Shown here: positions 1-6,770 of the stretch, piece by piece
Layout of the letters: each line of letters starts with the position of its first letter
Position numbering within the stretch: position 1 is the stretch's first letter
Source: JBHIBR01 sp046759145 [NCBI: Nitrospinota bacterium]
GTDB taxonomy: Bacteria > UBA8248
Reading direction: 5' to 3'
Assembly: GCA_046759145.1 (NCBI GenBank)
Contig: JBHIBR010000101.1
Location: forward strand, 1 to 6,770
DNA: 6,770 nucleotides
The notes under the pieces: generated by a model
What the model saw: the letters and a program-made list of their open reading frames with translations, nothing else
What the model was told of the DNA's origin: nothing
Database searches by the model: none
Made by a program: the position numbers and the translations under genes

Positions 1-105
1 GGACCGTGGCGGAATTATAGCGTCTTCAGGCAGGTTTTGGGATAACTTCTAGGAACTTTTTATGTTTTGTCAAACCCATCTCCGCCCCACCGTAGAAGGG
101 GCGTC

Positions 106-121
106 TTTGACCTACGTCAAA
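106..121. promoter_or_regulatory. CRP/FNR-like palindromic operator candidate
   Basis: The sequence TTTGAC-CTAC-GTCAAA is a perfect 6+6 inverted repeat with a 4-nt spacer. It contains TTGAC-N4-GTCAA, close to the TTGAT-N4-ATCAA layout bound by FNR/DNR-type members of the CRP/FNR family. It lies roughly 480 nt before the methyltransferase start, far for a direct operator of that gene, so it may serve an unseen transcript or a gene to the left. It could also be a small RNA hairpin. The motif match is seen; the regulator is inferred. Confidence 0.3.
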
Positions 122-212
122 AAAGAAACCTTCCGGGCTTAAGAGGGTTTCGGGGCTTCAGGCCAGGCCCTCCTCGACCCGGGCGAGGCATCCCGGCGAG
201 CGGGGCAGATAG

Positions 213-240
213 ATATGCCGGCGGCTACCGCCGGCGGTAT
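213..240 (+). other. GC-rich hairpin in the leader
   Basis: CCGGCGG (218-224) pairs perfectly with CCGCCGG (228-234) around a CTA loop. The helix extends outward through 217/235 and 216/236 and, past a bulged G237, through ATA (213-215) with TAT (238-240). There is no T-run on either side, so it is not an intrinsic terminator. It may be part of a structured transcript or simply a GC-rich palindrome. Confidence 0.35.
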
Positions 241-520
241 CGGTGGAGCCTCTGCTGAAGGAGAGGGAGACAAAGCTTCCCCTTGGTCACCGGGAGGGCC
301 AAAGGGCGGCGACGAACCCCAGACCGTGCGGCTCAAATTTGCAAAAAAATTCGGCCTGAAGCTCACCTTTCGGCCTTCACGCTACCCAGCCCGGACTTTA
401 ACCCAAAAAAATCAAGAAATCACTCCTTGGAAAGGGGTCCAAGCAGGCGGAATCAATGCCCTGCCGGCCGGCCGCTTCCCATAGCCAAGGTAGACATCTG
501 GCCCTTTTTCTGATAGATTT

Positions 521-549
521 TTGTTAAGCTTTTCAGTGCTGCATAGACA
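521..549 (+). promoter_or_regulatory. Weak sigma70-like promoter candidate
   Basis: TTGTTA at 521-526 and TAGACA at 544-549 are separated by 17 nt, in a locally AT-rich patch about 50 nt before the methyltransferase start. The spacing is ideal but both hexamers are poor matches (4/6 and 3/6). It is offered only as the best candidate in this stretch. Confidence 0.2.
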
Positions 550-599
550 ATCGCCAAAGAGGGCTCCCCCGCTATCCCCGTTCTTGGAAGGGCAATGCC

Positions 600-1385
600 A
601 TGGCCGAAAAGGTTCCGATTCCAGATCTGGACGTTGCGGGCCTCCGGGAGGCGATCCGCGAAGAGTACGCAGAGGTGGCGAAGCATCCCGACAAAGGCTT
701 CCACTTCCACACGGGAAGGCCGCTGGCGAAACTGCTCGGCTATCCCGACTCCTGGCTTCAAACCCTTCCCGAGAGCGCCGTCGAATCGTTGGCGGGAACC
801 GGCAACCCGTTTGCCTTGGGCGAGATCCGACCCGGCGAGCGCGTCGTGGACGTCGGCTGCGGCGCTGGCTTCGACAGCTTCCTCGCGGCGGGCTTCGTCG
901 GACCTTCCGGCCACGTCATCGGGGTGGAGATGACGCCGGAGATGCTCCGTAAGGCGCGCGACGCGGCCTCCGAGAGGGGTCTTGCGCACCTGGAGTTCAA
1001 AGAGGGCTTCGCCGAGGAACTGCCCATTCCGGACGGATGGGCCGATGTCGTCATCTCCAACGGCGTGGCCAATCTTTGCCCGGACAAGCCCCGCGTGTTC
1101 TCGGAAATGCACCGAGTGCTCAAGCCGGGGGGACGGATCCAGATCGCCGACATCCTGGTGCAAAAACCGGTTCCCGAGGCAGCCAAGCAGCAGGTCGACC
1201 TCTGGACGGGGTGAATCGCCGGGGCTCTGCTGGAGGCAGAGCTTGAGGCGGTCGTCACCGGGGCCGGCTTCGAGGGTTTCGAGATCACTTGGCGGAAGGA
1301 CGTGTTCAGCGGAGCGCCGCAAGCCTCAAGCTCCGCCGCATTCGGCACCTTGGGCATCAACTTCTGTGCCCGCAAGCCAGCTTGA
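600..1385 (+). CDS. ArsM-like SAM methyltransferase, probable selenoprotein (UGA 1212-1214 read as Sec205)
   Basis: Class I SAM-dependent methyltransferase related to arsenite methyltransferase ArsM, presumably cytoplasmic. ATG 600 follows GGAAGG (586-591) by 8 nt. The SAM-binding glycine motif VDVGCGAGF lies at residues 83-91, the acidic post-I residue is E110 (GVEMTPEML), the motif-IV-like segment is VISNGVANLCPDK (151-163), and HRVLKPGGRI is at 171-180. A conventional reading stops at 1214 after DLWTG (204 aa), short for the family. Across that TGA the same frame continues as IAGALLEAELEAVV and ends near GTLGINFCARKPA, which matches the expected ArsM-type C-terminus. The result is 261 residues, a normal length. 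The TGA falls on the conserved Cys of the (C)IAGAL motif, so Sec is inferred. T67 stands where ArsM usually has another Cys, so arsenite as substrate is uncertain; another thiophilic or metalloid substrate is possible. The cyclase gene follows after 47 nt. Confidence 0.85.
1212..1242 (+). promoter_or_regulatory. Sec UGA codon plus bacterial SECIS-like hairpin
   Basis: The in-frame TGA occupies 1212-1214. Nine nucleotides later GCTCTGC (1224-1230) pairs perfectly with GCAGAGC (1236-1242) around the pentaloop TGGAG (1231-1235); two G-U pairs (1223/1243, 1222/1244) can lengthen it. The apical loop begins 16 nt after the UGA and has G at its second position. This fits the commonly used bacterial SECIS criteria: a short stem within the coding sequence, a G in the first two loop bases, and a UGA-to-loop spacing of about 16-37 nt. 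Hairpin and spacing are seen directly; SelB binding is inferred. Confidence 0.7.
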
Positions 1386-1432
1386 ACCTAGAACGCGACA
1401 GGTTTGGCTGCTAACTGCCGGGGAGGCGCACG

Positions 1433-2614
1433 ATGCGATGCCCAGCCTGTCAACACGAAAACCGAGAGGGAGCCCTCTTCTGCGAGCAGTGCGGCGCCCG
1501 GCTCGAGAGAGCCTGCCCGCACTGCGGCGACGCCGTGCGGCCGGGCGCCCGCTTCTGCGACCGCTGCGGAGGACCGCTCGAGTCTCCCGGCCCCGGGCCC
1601 CTCGAACCCTCACCGCTGGGGGCGCGGGCAGAGGCCCTGGCCAGCCGGATCCCCAGCTACACCCCGAAATACCTCGTCGAAAAGGTGCTGACCACCCGCA
1701 GCGCCATCGAGGGGGAGCGCAAACAGGTGACCGTCCTGTTCGCGGATGTGTGCGGCTTCACGGGGATCTCGGAGGCCCTGGACCCCGAAGAGGTCCATCG
1801 CCTCATGGACTGCTGTTTCGAGATTCTTATGCGCGAGATCCACCGCTTCGAGGGGACCATCAACCAGTTCACCGGCGACGGGGTCATGGCGCTCTTCGGC
1901 GCGCCCATCGCCCACGAGGACGCCCCTCAGCGCGCGATCCGGGCGGCCCTGGCGATTCAGGAGGCGCTGCGCGCCCACGGCGAGGAGGTCCGAAGCGAGC
2001 AGGGCGTGAGCCTCCAGATGCGCATCGGCATCAACACGGGGACCGTGGTGGTGGGCAAGATCGGCGACGACCTGCGGATGGACTACACGGCGGCGGGGGA
2101 CACCACGAACCTGGCCGCCCGCCTGCAGGCCATGGCCGAGCCGGGCACGGTGCTGGTGAGCGAACACACGCATCGGCTGACGAAGGACTTCTTCGAATTC
2201 TCCCACCTGGGCCCCGTCCACGTGAAGGGGAAGAGCTATCCGGAGGCCGTCTACCGGGCGCTCCGGCCCAAGGCCGTCCACTCGCGCATGGACGTGGCCG
2301 CGAGGCGCGGGCTCACGCCCCTGGTCGCCCGGCACGCGGAGCTCGACCACTTGATGGCCTCCTTCGCCAAGGCCAAGGACGGCCACGGCCAGGTCGTCTC
2401 GCTGGTGGGCGAGGCGGGCGTGGGCAAATCCCGGCTGGCGTATGAGTTCAAAGGGCGCCTCCGCGGCGAGGACATCACCCTCTGGGAGGCTTACTGCCCC
2501 TCCTACGGCCAAGCCATCCCCTATCTGCCCATCGCCCAGATCGTCAAGAAATACTGCGGCATCGAGGAAGGGGACGACGAATCCAAGATCCGGCAGAAGG
2601 TGGGCGCGACTTGA
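1433..2614 (+). CDS. Zinc-ribbon / class III nucleotide cyclase / AAA-ATPase signalling protein, N-terminal part up to in-frame TGA
   Basis: Probable cytoplasmic adenylate cyclase that would make cAMP from ATP and couple this to an STAND/AAA-type ATPase. ATG 1433 follows GGGAGG (1421-1426) by 6 nt. Residues 1-50 carry four CxxC knuckles (C3/C6, C17/C20, C28/C31, C42/C45), a double zinc ribbon. The cyclase domain spans about 95-280: metal-binding D105 (LFADVCGFT) and D149 (FTGDG), likely adenine-selecting K97 and D217 (DYTAAGD), and transition-state residues N226 and R230 (NLAAR). All key positions are present. A Walker A motif GEAGVGKS lies at 326-333. The frame is cut by TGA 2612-2614 at codon 394, inside the ATPase domain. 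The remainder continues in the same frame to 3757, so this is one gene with a lesion. It probably shares a transcript with the upstream methyltransferase. Confidence 0.88.
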   Translation: MRCPACQHENREGALFCEQCGARLERACPHCGDAVRPGARFCDRCGGPLESPGPGPLEPSPLGARAEALASRIPSYTPKYLVEKVLTTRSAIEGERKQVTVLFADVCGFTGISEALDPEEVHRLMDCCFEILMREIHRFEGTINQFTGDGVMALFGAPIAHEDAPQRAIRAALAIQEALRAHGEEVRSEQGVSLQMRIGINTGTVVVGKIGDDLRMDYTAAGDTTNLAARLQAMAEPGTVLVSEHTHRLTKDFFEFSHLGPVHVKGKSYPEAVYRALRPKAVHSRMDVAARRGLTPLVARHAELDHLMASFAKAKDGHGQVVSLVGEAGVGKSRLAYEFKGRLRGEDITLWEAYCPSYGQAIPYLPIAQIVKKYCGIEEGDDESKIRQKVGAT

Positions 2615-2651
2615 AGCCCCTGGCTTTCGCGGGGTCTCCGCGAAGGGGCGG
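2609..2651 (+). other. Disruption in the cyclase gene: likely two compensating indels, with a hairpin between
   Basis: Frame 1433 meets TGA at 2612. If one base is skipped near 2609, the next frame reads LEAPGFRGVSAKG (2610-2648), and stepping back one base in the GGGG run at 2645-2648 restores ADLTASLE in the original frame. The repaired text KVGA-x-LEAPGF resembles the KV-x3-LRALG helix that relatives have at this point, with the right spacing if two bases are missing before CTT and one G is missing from the G-run (net three). A hairpin, 2624-2632 pairing with 2638-2646 around GGTCT, sits inside the stretch and may have promoted slippage or a sequencing error. Confidence 0.55.
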
Positions 2652-2671
2652 ACCTGACAGCCAGCCTCGAG

Positions 2672-3757
2672 ATGGTCATCGAATACCTCAGCAGCATCCT
2701 CTCCATCCGGGTGAAGGACGAGCTGTTGCGGGGCATCAGTCTGGAGGAGCGCCGGCGGCAGATCTTCGAGTCGCTGAAGGCCATGTTCGTGGGCGAGAGC
2801 CAGCGGAAACCCGTGGTGGCCATCCTGGAGGACATCCACTGGATCGACCGAACCACGGAAGAGTTCCTGCTCTACCTGAGCCCGAGCGTGCCCAAGAACC
2901 CGATCATGATCCTGGCCCTGCACCGCCCAGAGTACAGGTGCCCGTGGGCGACCAGCTCGTCCTACCTCCGGGTGCCCGTCGAGCCCCTCTCCCGCCCAGA
3001 GAGCGAGGAGATGCTCCATCACATGCTGCGGGTCCAGGCAGTGGCCCAGGAGGTGAAGGAGCTAGTCCAGAGCAAGGCCGAGGGGAATCCGTTCTTTCTG
3101 GAGGAACTCGTCCTGGAGTTGCTGGAGGCCGGCTGGGTCCGCGCAGAAGGGGACGTGTGCCGGCTGGTGGGCGAGGGGGCCGAGGCTCACGTGCCCGCCA
3201 CGGTCCAGGACGTCATCATGGCTCGCATCGACCGGCTGGAGGAGTCTCCGAAGCGCACCCTCCAGTTGGCCGCCGTCATCGGCCACGAATTCGCCTTCGC
3301 CATCCTGGAGAAGATCGCCAAGCCGTCTCACACGCTGGGCCCGGCGCTCCAGGCCCTCCAGCAATCGGAGCTGATCGCCGAGAAGAGCCTCTTCCCGGAG
3401 CTGGAATACATGTTCAAGCACGCCCTCACCCAGAACGTGGCCTACAACAGCCTCCTGCTCAGGCGGCGCCGCGAGCTCCACGCCCGCATCGCCGCAGCCA
3501 TCGAAGAGCTCAAGCGCCACACTCTGGAAGAGCACCTCGAGATGCTGGCCTATCACTACAAAAACGGCGACCGGCCCGAGAAGGCCTTCGAATTCCTGGC
3601 CCGGGCGGGAGAGAAGGCGATGGAGCTGTCCTCCGCGGAAGTGGCGAAGACCTACTTCGCCGAGGCCCTGGCGGTCGCTTCCGACCTGGCCCCCTCGGAA
3701 GCCGCCCGAGCCCGGGAGCAGGAACTGAGGGTGCGGCTGCAGGAGATCGGCGCCTAG
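2672..3757 (+). CDS. C-terminal part of the interrupted cyclase/AAA-ATPase protein
   Basis: This is the same reading frame as the zinc-ribbon/cyclase segment; the whole in-frame length from 1433 is 774 codons. The first ATG after the lesion is 2672, but no Shine-Dalgarno precedes it, so independent translation is doubtful. It holds the Walker B strand of the ATPase, VVAILEDIHWID (D467 of the joined protein), then a sensor/lid-like helical region with the EGNPFFLEELV motif typical of these AAA modules, a winged-helix-like stretch around RTLQLAAVIGHEF, and one or two helical repeats (LARAGEKAMELS, AKTYFAEALAVA) that look like the start of TPRs. It ends at TAG 3755-3757. Relatives usually carry a longer TPR array, so the C-terminus is short. 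Without the N-terminal part there is no Walker A, so this fragment alone should not be an active ATPase. Confidence 0.8.
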   Translation: MVIEYLSSILSIRVKDELLRGISLEERRRQIFESLKAMFVGESQRKPVVAILEDIHWIDRTTEEFLLYLSPSVPKNPIMILALHRPEYRCPWATSSSYLRVPVEPLSRPESEEMLHHMLRVQAVAQEVKELVQSKAEGNPFFLEELVLELLEAGWVRAEGDVCRLVGEGAEAHVPATVQDVIMARIDRLEESPKRTLQLAAVIGHEFAFAILEKIAKPSHTLGPALQALQQSELIAEKSLFPELEYMFKHALTQNVAYNSLLLRRRRELHARIAAAIEELKRHTLEEHLEMLAYHYKNGDRPEKAFEFLARAGEKAMELSSAEVAKTYFAEALAVASDLAPSEAARAREQELRVRLQEIGA

Positions 3758-4106
3758 TCCGGCAGGCCCCATCTCCAGCCTGGCACGGGGCCGACTCGAC
3801 GCCGAAAAGGCCGCCGCCACCGAAGATCTGACCGATAGAGGGGACTCGATGCCCGCCGAGTCTTCGGAACCTTTCTCACCCTAATTGCCCCTCACAAGGA
3901 CACCAGTTAGCTGGCAGGAGCGGGCCTCCCTTTGCACCGGGATGAGGCTCATCGCCTGGACCTTTCACACGGACGACGCCTTCGCCCGAGAGAGGGAAGG
4001 CCCAGAACGTGGTGACCTAGGGGCCCGGCCGGGGGCCTCATGCTGCTTTTGCCAAGCCTGTTTCAAGCCAGGGCCAGGCGCTGCCGGGGCGAAAGAGCCT
4101 CCCCCC
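3758..4106. other. Convergent intergenic region
   Basis: About 350 nt separate the plus-strand cyclase stop from the minus-strand BsuPI stop. A plus-strand open frame crossing 3885-4514 is composition noise antisense to the BsuPI gene. Apart from the hairpin at 3843-3862, I see no gene, RNA or repeat here. Confidence 0.5.
3843..3862 (+). terminator. Weak hairpin downstream of the cyclase gene
   Basis: GACTCG (3843-3848) pairs with CGAGTC (3857-3862) around an 8-nt loop, 85 nt after the cyclase stop and in the convergent gap where a terminator would be expected. CCGAAGA just upstream can also pair with TCTTCGG across the hairpin. The following TTCGGAACCTTTC is only weakly T-rich, so intrinsic termination is uncertain. 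Confidence 0.25.
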
Positions 4107-4571
4107 CTAGCGCACCCGGATGGTGGTCGAGGCGCTCACGGGCCAGTTGGTAGAGGCGAGCCGCCCCCGGAGGATGTAGCGACCCCCCTTGGGCGGGGCG
4201 GGGACGGTGGCGTTGTAGCGGAGCGCGCCGGGATCTGGTTTCAGGACCTGCTCCCCAATCACCTGGAGGAAGAAGCGCCCCTGGGACCAGCGCCATACCT
4301 CCTGCCCGGCTGCATCCTCGAGGGTGAGGTCGAAGCGCTGGCTCGTCGGAAAGGTGAGCCGCACCGCCTCGCGGGTCCGGTTGGTGACCTCCAGGGTGAC
4401 CTGGATCGGCTCACCGGGGGCGTAGGCCTCCCTGCTGACCCGGAGGGCCAGGACCACCTCCGGGCTGGCCGCAGCGGCAGATTGCGCGCCTTTTCCCGCA
4501 AAAGCCATTGCTGAGAAGACACCGACACCGATGAAAGCGGCGACAATCGGAGTAACGCTCCGGTTTCTCAT
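4107..4571 (-). CDS. Exported BsuPI-domain protein (putative protease-inhibitor-like)
   Basis: Predicted 154-residue secreted or periplasmic protein. An upstream in-frame ATG at 4616 exists, but ATG 4571 is preferred: AGGAG (complement of 4580-4584) lies 8 nt before it, and the protein then opens with MRNRS followed by a hydrophobic segment (residues 8-25), a signal peptide with possible cleavage after AFA (23-25). The mature part is an Ig-like beta domain, residues about 37-154, with the BsuPI signature VTNRT..VRLTFPTSQRFD (62-81) and EVWRWSQGRFF (91-101). The founding family member is the intracellular proteinase inhibitor of Bacillus subtilis, which acts on a subtilisin-type protease; many family members are uncharacterised exported proteins. 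The gene lies on the same strand 207 nt after the S8 protease stop, but a terminator stands between them, so it probably has its own promoter. The inhibitor role is inferred. Confidence 0.82.
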   Translation of the reverse strand: MRNRSVTPIVAAFIGVGVFSAMAFAGKGAQSAAAASPEVVLALRVSREAYAPGEPIQVTLEVTNRTREAVRLTFPTSQRFDLTLEDAAGQEVWRWSQGRFFLQVIGEQVLKPDPGALRYNATVPAPPKGGRYILRGRLASTNWPVSASTTIRVR

Positions 4572-4695
4572 GAGCCCTGCTCCTGATGCGAAAGATCGCG
4601 TGCGCTGCACCGCCAAATCCGCTCCCTCAGTTTACCCCATCACCCCAGAGGGGGTCGAATTGCCACCGCTGTCCATGCCCTTTTCCCATCGGGAT

Positions 4696-4790
4696 GGCCC
4701 GAGAAATGGAAAAAGGCGACGGGAGGATAACCACCCGCCGCCCTTCTTTACTTCTTCGCCGTCACCGAGGCTTCGAAATTACAAGCCCCT
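4696..4790 (-). repeat. Direct repeat copy A (protease 3' end and terminator)
   Basis: Roughly 85-95 nt closely resemble the segment at about 6619-6711 in the same orientation, with about 80% identity by eye over the core and mostly transition differences. The copy includes the last codons and TAA stop of the S8 protease gene, a purine-rich spacer and the terminator hairpin. The stop codons align between copies and the spacing from stop to hairpin is 36 nt in both. Confidence 0.7.
4710..4742 (-). terminator. Rho-independent terminator of the S8 protease gene
   Basis: Read on the minus strand, GGCGGCGGG (complement of 4734-4742) pairs with CCCGTCGCC (complement of 4715-4723) with one G-U pair. 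Two further inner pairs across a T-T mismatch leave a TTAT loop. Five T residues (complement of A 4710-4714) follow directly. It lies 36 nt after the protease stop codon, a classic intrinsic terminator. Confidence 0.8.
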
Positions 4791-6347
4791 CACATTAAGA
4801 AGTGGCTCCGGGTAGCCGGTGAGGGGGATACCAAAGATGCTAAGGTCGTCGTCCGGCCATGGCGGGTCACAGATAATCGGTAAGCTAATGTCCGTTCCTT
4901 TGTCCGGATTTCCCGTTCCATCCCAGCACGCCCCACCCGTCGTCAGCGCGACGCGGACCTGCTCGGGAGTATCCCCCGGATTGGCCTGAAGGTACAGAGC
5001 CGCCGCCCCGGCCGTATGGGGTGCGGCCATGCTGGTCCCGGTCAGGGTATCGTAATTCTTACTTTTTCCGTAGTCGGTGGTTAATGTGACGTCGTAGGTC
5101 GGCATCGTGGACAGGGTCACCACGCCGGAGGCCATCATGTTCACCACGAGGGAGTCGGAGTCTGGGGGATATGCGGTTTCGCATAGACCATCCCCATCGA
5201 AGTCCCAGCAGTAGGCGCTGTAGTTGCTGAAGGTCCAAGCCCAGGTGTCATCGTCCTCGTCGACAACACCGTCCCCATTCCAGTCCAACCCTGGGCCTCC
5301 ACCCCCGGGAGATCCGTTCGAATCCGCGAAGGCCGAGACGGTGAGGCTATGCGCGCAGTTTGCCGGGGTGGAGTAGATCGCGTCCATACCGGAGTTTCCG
5401 GCTGCGGCGACGACCGTCACCCCGGCAGCCACGGCATTGGCCACTGCATTGCACATGGGGCCAGAGCCGAGGGAAAAATCGAATGCCCCCAGGCTCAGAT
5501 TGGCGACCTGCATCCCGTTCTTCCATGCCCAGTCAAGGCCCTTGATGACGGTGGAGAGAGAGCCAGATCCATCCTTGTCGAGCACTTTCACGGCATAGAG
5601 ATGGGCATCCCGTGCGACGCCGACCACGCCGAAGGGGTTATTTACAGCCGCGATGGTGCCGGCCACATGGGTGCCGTGGCCATGGCCATCCTTGGGAGGC
5701 TTATTCCCTTTGTCCACGAAATTCTTCCCGCCTTTGTAATTGGCCACCAAGTCGGGATGGCAGGGGTCAATGCCCGTGTCGATGACGGCCACCTTGACTC
5801 CCGCTCCTGTTGCCGTGGCGGAATCAGCACCAATTCGGCGGACGCCTGGTGGGGCTTCTTCTGGGTTGGAAGCTGGGTTAAAATCAGGGTCGCCCGAGAG
5901 GTCCGGACACCCGCCCCCACCTTCTTCTGGAGGAGGATCGGTGCTCCCGTTCTTGCACGAGGGCCAAGGCTCGCAGTACTTCCCGCCGGCCGCCTTCGGG
6001 AAGGCATGGACGACGAGGTCCGGGCTGACGGACCGGACCCGGGCATCGGCCGCCAGGCGGTTTGCCGCTCGCTGGGACATGCGGGCGGCAAAGCCGTTGA
6101 TGAGGGTGAAACGGCGGAACGCGGCCAGGCGATGCGCGTTGATGAAGGCATCCCGCCCCACACCCCGCTTCAGCTCCACGATGTACTGGCCGGGGATCAC
6201 CTCCGGCTCGCCCGGCGGTTCTGGCAAGGGCGCAGGGCCTACGAGCTCCTGGGCGCCGGCCGGGCTCGCCCCCAGGGCGAGGAGCAGGACCGCGAAGGCC
6301 AGCCCAACTAAGATCGTCTGAACAAACAGTCGAATCCTCTTGCGCAT
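4779..6347 (-). CDS. Secreted S8 (subtilisin-like) serine protease with calcium-loop-like insert
   Basis: 522-residue pre-pro-protease. ATG 6347 is chosen over in-frame ATG 6464 because GGAG (complement of 6355-6358) sits 7 nt upstream and the protein then starts MRKRIRLFVQ plus a hydrophobic core and ASPAGAQ (signal peptide, residues 1-32). Residues about 48-117 form an I9-type inhibitor propeptide (IPGQYIVELK to VVHAFP). A Gly/Pro-rich linker with C125, C131 and C147 follows. Catalytic triad: D190 (AVIDTGID), H224 (GHGHGTHVAG), S439 (GTSMAAPH); oxyanion N318 (AAGNSG). Between N318 and S439 lie D355-D366 (DWNGDGVVDEDD) and D382-E390 (DFDGDGLCE), which look like EF-hand/dockerin-type calcium loops. 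Ten cysteines lie after the propeptide, consistent with disulfides outside the cytoplasm. All catalytic residues are intact. The protein ends at NVRGL with no obvious sorting or anchoring domain. Confidence 0.93.
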   Translation of the reverse strand: MRKRIRLFVQTILVGLAFAVLLLALGASPAGAQELVGPAPLPEPPGEPEVIPGQYIVELKRGVGRDAFINAHRLAAFRRFTLINGFAARMSQRAANRLAADARVRSVSPDLVVHAFPKAAGGKYCEPWPSCKNGSTDPPPEEGGGGCPDLSGDPDFNPASNPEEAPPGVRRIGADSATATGAGVKVAVIDTGIDPCHPDLVANYKGGKNFVDKGNKPPKDGHGHGTHVAGTIAAVNNPFGVVGVARDAHLYAVKVLDKDGSGSLSTVIKGLDWAWKNGMQVANLSLGAFDFSLGSGPMCNAVANAVAAGVTVVAAAGNSGMDAIYSTPANCAHSLTVSAFADSNGSPGGGGPGLDWNGDGVVDEDDDTWAWTFSNYSAYCWDFDGDGLCETAYPPDSDSLVVNMMASGVVTLSTMPTYDVTLTTDYGKSKNYDTLTGTSMAAPHTAGAAALYLQANPGDTPEQVRVALTTGGACWDGTGNPDKGTDISLPIICDPPWPDDDLSIFGIPLTGYPEPLLNVRGL

Positions 6348-6698
6348 CGCCTCACTCCACTTCGCTGGCTCCGGCCGCCTCCGCCTGGCCCCCCTCCCCA
6401 AACCCCAAAAGAGCTCGGGGAACCTAGTATTCACTCTCCAGGAGCCTCCCGGACCATGGAGCACAAGACGCTAGCTTTTCGGGAGCATGATGCGTGCCAA
6501 TAGGCGATTTTTTCGCGAAGAGACAATATCTCCTCCGCCCATCGGTGCGAATTTCTTCGCCCCCTCGCCAGCCTTATCCTATGGCCTCGTCATAAAGTAT
6601 TTTCGCCCGTTTTTCGTGTGACCCAAGTGGGAAAAGGCGACGGGAGGATACTACCCGCCGCCCTTCTCTGCTTCTTCACCTTCTCCAAGGCCTCGAAA
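6348..6698 (-). other. 5' region of the protease gene
   Basis: The gap between the protease start and the repeat/terminator to its right holds no gene. On the minus strand it is AT-richer around 6480-6620, where a promoter would be expected, but I cannot point to a clean -35/-10 pair. An imperfect structure is possible: GCGAAGA (6515-6521) can pair with TCTTCGC (6554-6560), with an inner GAGA/TCTC pairing (6520-6532). Its function is unknown. Confidence 0.35.
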
Positions 6699-6711
6699 CT
6701 ATGAGCCCCCC
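6619..6711 (-). repeat. Direct repeat copy B
   Basis: This is the second copy of the terminator-containing repeat, lying to the right (transcriptionally upstream) of the protease gene, about 1.92 kb from copy A. The hairpin arms are identical between copies; the flanks differ mainly by transitions, with one single-base gap in the loop. The element probably ends a neighbouring minus-strand gene in the same way that copy A ends the protease gene. Confidence 0.7.
6632..6662 (-). terminator. Rho-independent terminator, copy B
   Basis: On the minus strand GGCGGCGGG (complement of 6654-6662) pairs with CCCGTCGCC (complement of 6636-6644) and is followed by TTTT (complement of 6632-6635). It should terminate a minus-strand transcript entering from beyond the right edge, insulating the protease gene from it. 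Confidence 0.7.
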
Positions 6712-6770
6712 GCGGCAACTACTTGCAGAATTTGTTCGCTGGAGTTATCTTGTCCCAGATTAGCCCGTCC
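6699..6770 (-). CDS. Possible 3' tail of a minus-strand gene running off the right edge
   Basis: Only the last codons could be inside the window. Two frames are open from the edge. One gives 23 residues ending VVAAGGS at TAG 6699-6701, a stop that aligns with the protease stop in repeat copy A and lies the same 36 nt from its hairpin. The other gives 16 residues ending TPANKFCK at TAG 6719-6721. The terminator at 6632-6662 argues that a gene does end here, but which frame is real, and what it encodes, cannot be decided from so little sequence. Confidence 0.3.
   Translation of the reverse strand, partial: GRANLGQDNSSEQILQVVAAGGS

Follow-up and report, generated by a model that had tools for sequence, protein, structure and literature searches.

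A predicted selenoprotein branch of ArsM-fold methyltransferases with selenocysteine at one arsenic-ligand position

Introduction

Arsenite methyltransferases that carry selenocysteine (Sec) are already catalogued. In the accessible text of these sources, the 2008 Global Ocean Sampling (GOS) survey reports 8 such sequences (PMC2398784), a 2016 survey reports 41 from 39 organisms (PMC5029168), a 2022 catalogue places the enzyme under 'Experimentally verified' with Fomenko 2007 cited there (PMC9312934), and a 2026 catalogue gives its motif as UxxG (PMC13188914). Here we analyze a 6,770-nucleotide stretch of a Nitrospinota bacterium assembly (GCA_046759145.1, contig JBHIBR010000101.1, positions 1 to 6,770, forward strand; hereafter the window) and its ArsM-like methyltransferase gene, which is broken by one in-frame UGA and reads U-I-A-G there, the UxxG motif. 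A first-pass annotation of the window had called the product a probable new selenoprotein; "new" is too strong in view of the catalogues, and part of the branch described below may already be among the published sequences. We set this branch apart by its lack of two arsenic-ligand cysteines, C72 and C174 in the numbering of CmArsM. In the literature searched, which mostly excluded subscription papers, we met no account of the branch, of its Sec/Cys exchanges and the accompanying loss of the hairpin, or of its genomic neighbors.

The closest described proteins share much with the window protein. CmArsM (4fr0, 6cx6) and human AS3MT (8xt7) have the same fold; unlike them, the window protein is shorter, has C72 and C174 replaced, and would carry Sec at C224. 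The PRK11873 / NF008823 family likewise shares the fold, the S-adenosylmethionine (SAM) domain, and a soft residue at the C224 position, whereas the window protein has Thr67 and Gly155 in place of two ligands and an HFxxGR motif toward its N-terminus. Among the NCBIfam matches listed, the best is NF041537, an arsenite methyltransferase/AhpD selenoprotein (240.9 bits over residues 8-230), but the score is below the cut-off of 510 and the window protein ends at residue 261 with no AhpD match (Pfam, 0.001). The catalogue, in its accessible text, gives NF041537 three Sec, where the window has one, and NF041536 and NF047649 two each (PMC13188914). These last two, a DUF2284 fusion and UXPK-star, contain related Sec methyltransferase domains, which the window protein matches at 210.3 bits (cut-off 575) and 212.0 bits (cut-off 460), respectively. 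Haft and Tolstoy 2025 is reportedly the reference cited for double-selenoprotein families. The window protein scores below the cut-off of every NCBIfam family among the 25 listed of 54.

Results

A conserved UGA in a methyltransferase frame

The methyltransferase gene and its parts are as follows.
600..1385, plus strand: ArsM-like SAM methyltransferase, predicted selenoprotein of 261 residues with Sec205 (read-through translation, Pfam, solved-fold match).
1212..1214, plus strand: in-frame UGA codon, predicted Sec205 (TGA or Cys codon in aligned subfamily rows).
1215..1382, plus strand: coding C-terminus after the UGA, residues 206-261, the last helices and strands of the fold (pN/pS, predicted structure).
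1224..1242, plus strand: hairpin resembling a bacterial selenocysteine insertion sequence (bSECIS), arms 1224-1230 and 1236-1242, loop 1231-1235 TGGAG (fold, conservation, bSECIS rules).

The frame runs from ATG 600 to the terminal TGA at 1383 and is broken once, by TGA 1212-1214 at position 205, exactly where the first-pass annotation had placed these landmarks. As that annotation also predicted, a plain open reading frame (ORF) listing ends the gene at this codon, truncating the product to 204 residues. Pfam Methyltransf_31 matches the window protein at 7.1e-32.

A contig scan recovered 10 relatives, eight with TGA (one of them the remnant L010) and two, less similar, with TGC. We then ran a six-row profile over 1012 genomes sampled from four phyla, with E thresholds of 1e-20, 1e-70, 1e-70, and 1e-60 in order, and found a TGA-bearing member in 4/18, 14/396, 26/400, and 13/198 genomes, at least 57 of 1012 overall; these counts are lower bounds because scoring in the three large phylum scans was capped at 6 or 13 candidates for each genome. 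Across 101 aligned loci, the subfamily was defined by SNGV, with Gly at the C174 column (69 usable rows). Position 205 in these rows is TGA in 60 and a Cys codon in nine, so the column holds UGA or Cys and nothing else, as expected of a Sec site by the first-pass annotation. Elsewhere in the alignment, the 20 rows with Cys at the C174 column have Cys at 205 too, and 11 rows with SNAS have Ser. L011-L031, L061, L062, L076, and L106 (other genes or duplicates) were left out of alignment use, as were four matches that have no locus: three with TGA (G003:C26, G768:C51, G005:C162) and one lacking it (G1000:C39). L010, an internally deleted remnant with TGA, was excluded from the 69-row and stem counts. 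The N-terminal part is missing from L006 and L009 and partly from L105.

Several loci in this set have features of their own. The SNAS rows (L046, L047, L052-L060), from G001's phylum, form an ArsM-like group in which the Sec column holds Ser and SNAS replaces SNCV. L010, near 3998-4168, has lost the methyltransferase body, and another in-frame TGA stands at its counterpart of the window's Cys256. On G032:C123 (9360-12030), two subfamily genes on opposite strands, one with Sec and its paralogue with Cys (L068, L075), are separated by about 1.1 kb.

A hairpin conserved with the UGA

Published bSECIS rules, in the accessible text of the 2026 catalogue, specify a stem of 4-16 bp, a loop of 3-9 nt with G in its first two positions, a distance of 16-37 nt from the UGA, and a minimum free energy of at most -7.5 (PMC13188914). 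The window hairpin falls within the rules on loop (TGGAG), stem (7 bp, starting nine bases past the UGA), and UGA-to-loop distance (16 nt). The fold of 1206-1256 (-24.6 kcal/mol, within the energy limit; z -2.79; 2/200 dinucleotide shuffles as good) reproduces the 7-bp TGGAG hairpin drawn in the first-pass annotation, with the small correction that a U-G pair can also form and leave GGA as the loop.

Conservation of the stem was scored as seven pairs counted from nine bases past the UGA, against a null of 1000 synonymous-codon shuffles. The 60 Sec rows average 6.78 of 7 pairs versus 4.70 in the null (sd 0.12, max 5.10), and 51 of them have perfect stems, where the null maximum is 6; the nine Cys rows average 3.67 pairs versus 3.71, and none reaches 6. 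When one arm is slid by 1-3 bases, pairing in Sec rows falls to 1.7-3.4. Sixteen stem versions occur among the Sec rows, with compensatory changes (for example GCTCTGC/GCAGAGC, GCGCTGC/GCAGCGC, GGCCTGC/GCAGGCT, GCTCTAC/GTAGAGC, and GCTCTGT/ACAGAGC), and G is found at loop position 2 in 57/60. The Sec rows share ancestry, so that their stem counts are not independent; the Sec label requires at least six changes on an 83-row tree. Whole-fold scores, compared by group, are lower for Sec than for Cys rows (Mann-Whitney p 0.004). The hairpin is kept in Sec rows beyond chance and is absent from Cys rows. Rfam, searched with E up to 5 over 1000-1500, gave only two matches, both far under gathering scores.

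Selection and fold beyond the UGA

The ratio of nonsynonymous to synonymous differences (pN/pS) is lower downstream of the UGA than upstream in 8/8 pairs compared (window versus L001, 0.14 after and 0.24 before). Judged from these codon comparisons, the C-terminus past the UGA is under purifying selection, a result that bears out the first-pass annotation's expectation of mostly synonymous substitutions there. An AlphaFold2 model has a mean predicted local distance difference test score (pLDDT) of 93.6, the part after the UGA included, and builds residues 212-221 into the fold as a helix and residues 225-233 and 251-258 as strands; a product cut at the UGA would, according to this model, lose the last strands. 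The best solved-fold match is CmArsM 4fr0 (Z 26.8, root-mean-square deviation 2.2, 216 residues aligned), with further matches to 6cx6, also CmArsM (Z 26.6), and human AS3MT 8xt7 (Z 19.9); the top three Z scores all belong to ArsM entries.

Selenocysteine machinery in genomes of relatives

SelA or tRNA-Sec scores above cut-off in 58 of the 60 genomes that carry a Sec member. SelA is present in 55 (7/8 of the first set and 48/52 of the second), and three of the five genomes without it have tRNA-Sec (G009, G027, G749). SelB, searched in the first eight Sec genomes, is over cut-off in seven. SelA is more frequent in Sec genomes than its base rate (14/14 versus 68%, p 0.005; 25/26 versus 80%, p 0.02) and than in genomes with only Cys members of the subfamily (55/60 versus 4/8, p 0.008). 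SelA, SelB, and tRNA-Sec all stay below cut-off in G007 and G008, the two genomes from the first scan whose ArsM is of the canonical Cys type. The SelA match at G005:C24:10358-11668 is itself reported with an in-frame TGA. A search of the window for tRNA genes found none.

Taken together, the TGA/Cys column, the conserved hairpin, and the position of the codon at ArsM C224 agree with the first-pass assignment of Sec205, and we regard the reading of UGA 1212 as selenocysteine as almost certain. A number of observations weigh against this interpretation. The machinery counts come from relatives' genomes rather than the window's source genome. Neither SelA nor tRNA-Sec passes its cut-off in two of the Sec-bearing genomes, G024 and G889, and G005 has SelA and SelB with tRNA-Sec under cut-off. 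Conversely, genomes with only Cys members have SelA in 4/8 and tRNA-Sec in 5/8, one of them weak (G874, 49.7 bits versus 47). SelA base rates are high (321/400 genomes in one phylum, 102/149 in another), and we therefore use its co-occurrence as supporting evidence only. Whole-fold energy is lower than in synonymous shuffles at p 0.05 in only 16/60 Sec rows (0/9 Cys rows), and one Sec row, L034, has an extra TAG in its body. Beyond decoding, the substrate and role that we assign to Sec205 are inferred.

A branch without the other arsenic ligands

Alignment to the solved ArsM places T67, G155, and U205 of the window at C72, C174, and C224 of CmArsM, so that the UGA coincides with the conserved ArsM cysteine to which the first-pass annotation had pointed. 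None of the 67 rows that cover column 67 has Cys there (the residue is V, T, M, or I), and column 155 is Gly in 69/69 subfamily rows, whereas Cys occupies both columns in 20/20 canonical rows. No other column of the subfamily is universally Cys; the commonest is 160, with Cys in 37/69, and the Cys of GINFCARKPA in the window is not conserved (R in 44/69). The branch has an HFxxGR motif in its N-terminal part (H35 65/66, F36 66/66, G39 66/66, R40 58/66). Judging from the alignment, Sec205 is the only one of three arsenic-site ligands left in the branch.

The 83-row tree, built without the 11 SNAS rows and seven others that were partial or gappy, splits 66 subfamily rows from 17 canonical ones with support 100/99 (midpoint root). 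The PRK11873 / NF008823 profile, with a cut-off of 263 bits, scores the window protein at 230.9; 9/9 subfamily proteins in our scan fall below it (208-234 bits) and 2/2 canonical proteins pass (342 and 357). A published criterion for ArsM calls for at least three of C44, C72, C174, and C224 (PMC5552862), of which the window protein could supply at most two, even counting Sec. The earlier description of an "ArsM-type enzyme" consequently stands for the fold and the C224 position and fails for the other two arsenic-binding cysteines and the curated ArsM cut-off. In CmArsM, according to the accessible text, the C174A and C224A mutants are each inactive on monomethylated (MMA) and inorganic arsenic (iAs), and the number of Cys ligands is three for iAs, two for MMA, and one for dimethylated arsenic, DMA(III) (PMC3877260). 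Within G001's phylum, the one phylum checked for this, all four Sec genomes also have a canonical Cys ArsM (G001 L048, G024 L051, G025 L049, G027 L050), which argues for a different role of the Sec branch.

Genomic neighbors of the branch

We searched with neighbor profiles around 45 loci (38 Sec and 7 Cys, a part of the set) and 20 control stretches from the same genomes. The loci have OsmC in 10, DsrE in nine, ArsR-rhodanese in 10 (eight strong), a TusA domain fused in frame in one, and a metallo-beta-lactamase-fold gene in eight. This last gene, which we take to be persulfide-dioxygenase-like, is labeled only Lactamase_B by Pfam. At least one of these five occurs in 25/45 loci (18/38 Sec, 7/7 Cys) versus 0/20 controls (Fisher p 5e-6), an enrichment that is partly circular, its p value overstated, as the profile seeds were drawn from the case loci and the loci are related. 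Within 2 kb lie 8/9 DsrE, 7/8 strong ArsR-rhodanese, 5/10 OsmC, and 2/8 lactamase-fold genes. At L138 (7701-8123, minus strand), a gene also represented by L078, the Sec methyltransferase carries a TusA domain fused in frame to its C-terminus, and a DsrE gene adjoins. Other long fusions, with open frames of up to 586 residues, were mostly stop-free flanks and were set aside, the TusA tail of L078/L138 being the exception. Profile searches of the window for OsmC, DsrE, ArsR-rhodanese, the lactamase-fold gene, and TusA found none. In some members of the branch, the neighboring genes hint at a chemistry of sulfur or selenium rather than arsenite.

Discussion

We propose that the window encodes an ArsM-fold methyltransferase in which hairpin 1224-1242 would direct Sec insertion at UGA 1212, a decoding model that we hold with near certainty. 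Sec205, at the place of CmArsM Cys224, would lie in the substrate site near SAM, as alignment and fold suggest, and its selenolate alone may hold a soft substrate for methylation. This single-ligand mechanism is suggested by the loss of the C72 and C174 equivalents. Arsenite binds three ligands, and free arsenite would therefore not be held by Sec205 alone; candidate substrates would be a group linked through sulfur or selenium, or an arsenical for which one protein ligand suffices. Taken as a whole, a Sec205 methyltransferase with a single-ligand hold on a soft substrate is very probably the best explanation, although for single-ligand chemistry considered by itself we would give even chances, and a sulfur or selenium substrate is a tentative suggestion. 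Somewhat speculatively, the branch may work outside arsenic metabolism: Sec205 could take sulfane sulfur, selenium, or a bound thiol from TusA-, DsrE-, or rhodanese-type carriers for methylation, as part of a sulfur/selenium detoxification or signaling set in little-studied phyla. Most prokaryotic selenoproteins are thought to be redox-active, according to the accessible text of the 2022 catalogue (PMC9312934). Because Sec would be the sole arsenic-site ligand kept, the branch offers a clean test of what selenium contributes to methyl transfer, and environmental surveys should check the cysteines before scoring its genes as arsM.

A rather unlikely alternative is a protein that methylates only single-ligand arsenicals, for example converting dimethylarsenite to trimethylarsine or acting on a thiol-bound arsenical. 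The one remaining ligand fits the single cysteine that binds DMA(III) in the accessible account of CmArsM (PMC3877260), but no arsenic gene set stood out among the neighbor clusters and proteins viewed, where no search was aimed at ars genes. It is also unlikely that the protein is a plain arsenite methyltransferase that exchanged Cys for Sec and serves arsenic detoxification. ArsM proteins are the closest by sequence and fold, the UxxG motif is common to published Sec arsenite methyltransferases, and some neighbors contain an ArsR-type regulator domain. The ArsR-type fold is also used by arsenic regulators. Yet every covering subfamily row lacks the C72 and C174 equivalents, the PRK11873 cut-off separates the nine subfamily proteins from the two canonical ones, and the four Sec genomes of G001's phylum have a canonical Cys ArsM as well.

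The decoding of UGA as Sec also has two competitors, both very improbable. One takes the TGA as a nonsense mutation or an error of sequencing, or else as a genuine stop after 204 residues, as the ORF listing and the decayed copy L010 might suggest; the same TGA recurs in 60/69 rows from many assemblies, selection continues downstream, and the hairpin is conserved. The other, in which a suppressor or near-cognate tRNA reads the UGA and no selenium is involved, has nothing specific in its favor and is weaker still, given SelA or tRNA-Sec in 58/60 Sec genomes, Cys as the sole alternative residue in 69 rows, and a stem kept only with UGA.

A downstream gene with a second in-frame UGA

Beginning 47 bases past the methyltransferase gene on the same strand is one further gene.
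1433..3757, plus strand: zinc ribbon, cyclase, and AAA ATPase gene (Pfam DZR, Guanylate_cyc, and AAA_16 on the read-through frame).

We treat this gene as genomic context, with no joint action with the methyltransferase implied. It forms one frame with an in-frame TGA at 2612-2614, residue 394, which the AAA_16 domain (residues 296-492) spans. Two TGA copies were found, in the window and in G027; the G027 relative (L186) is 69% identical, stays colinear with the window gene through 775 codons with no gap, and has TGA at the same codon. The Sec methyltransferase of G027 sits on a different contig from this cyclase relative. Positions 2612-2644 of the window hold the second UGA and, after it, a bSECIS-like hairpin, TTCGCGG-GGTCT-CCGCGAA, in which two pairs are changed on both sides in G027 (compensatory). 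Across 755 codons, the two copies share no other perfect stem of 6-8 pairs that has a loop G at the allowed spacing; the position of this one is reachable from eight codons including the UGA. Weighing against a second Sec, no other aligned homologue has Cys at column 394, most being gapped for about 11 residues there; the G026 copy has TAA at the site and is frameshifted; and the window hairpin is ordinary when taken alone (z -0.51, 58/200 shuffles as good). The downstream gene is possibly a second selenoprotein or a naturally split gene; two separate ORFs, with a restart at ATG 2672, are also possible.

Farther along the window, two stretches at about 4708-4790 and 6630-6705 look similar by eye, from gaaaaaggcgacgggaggata onward.
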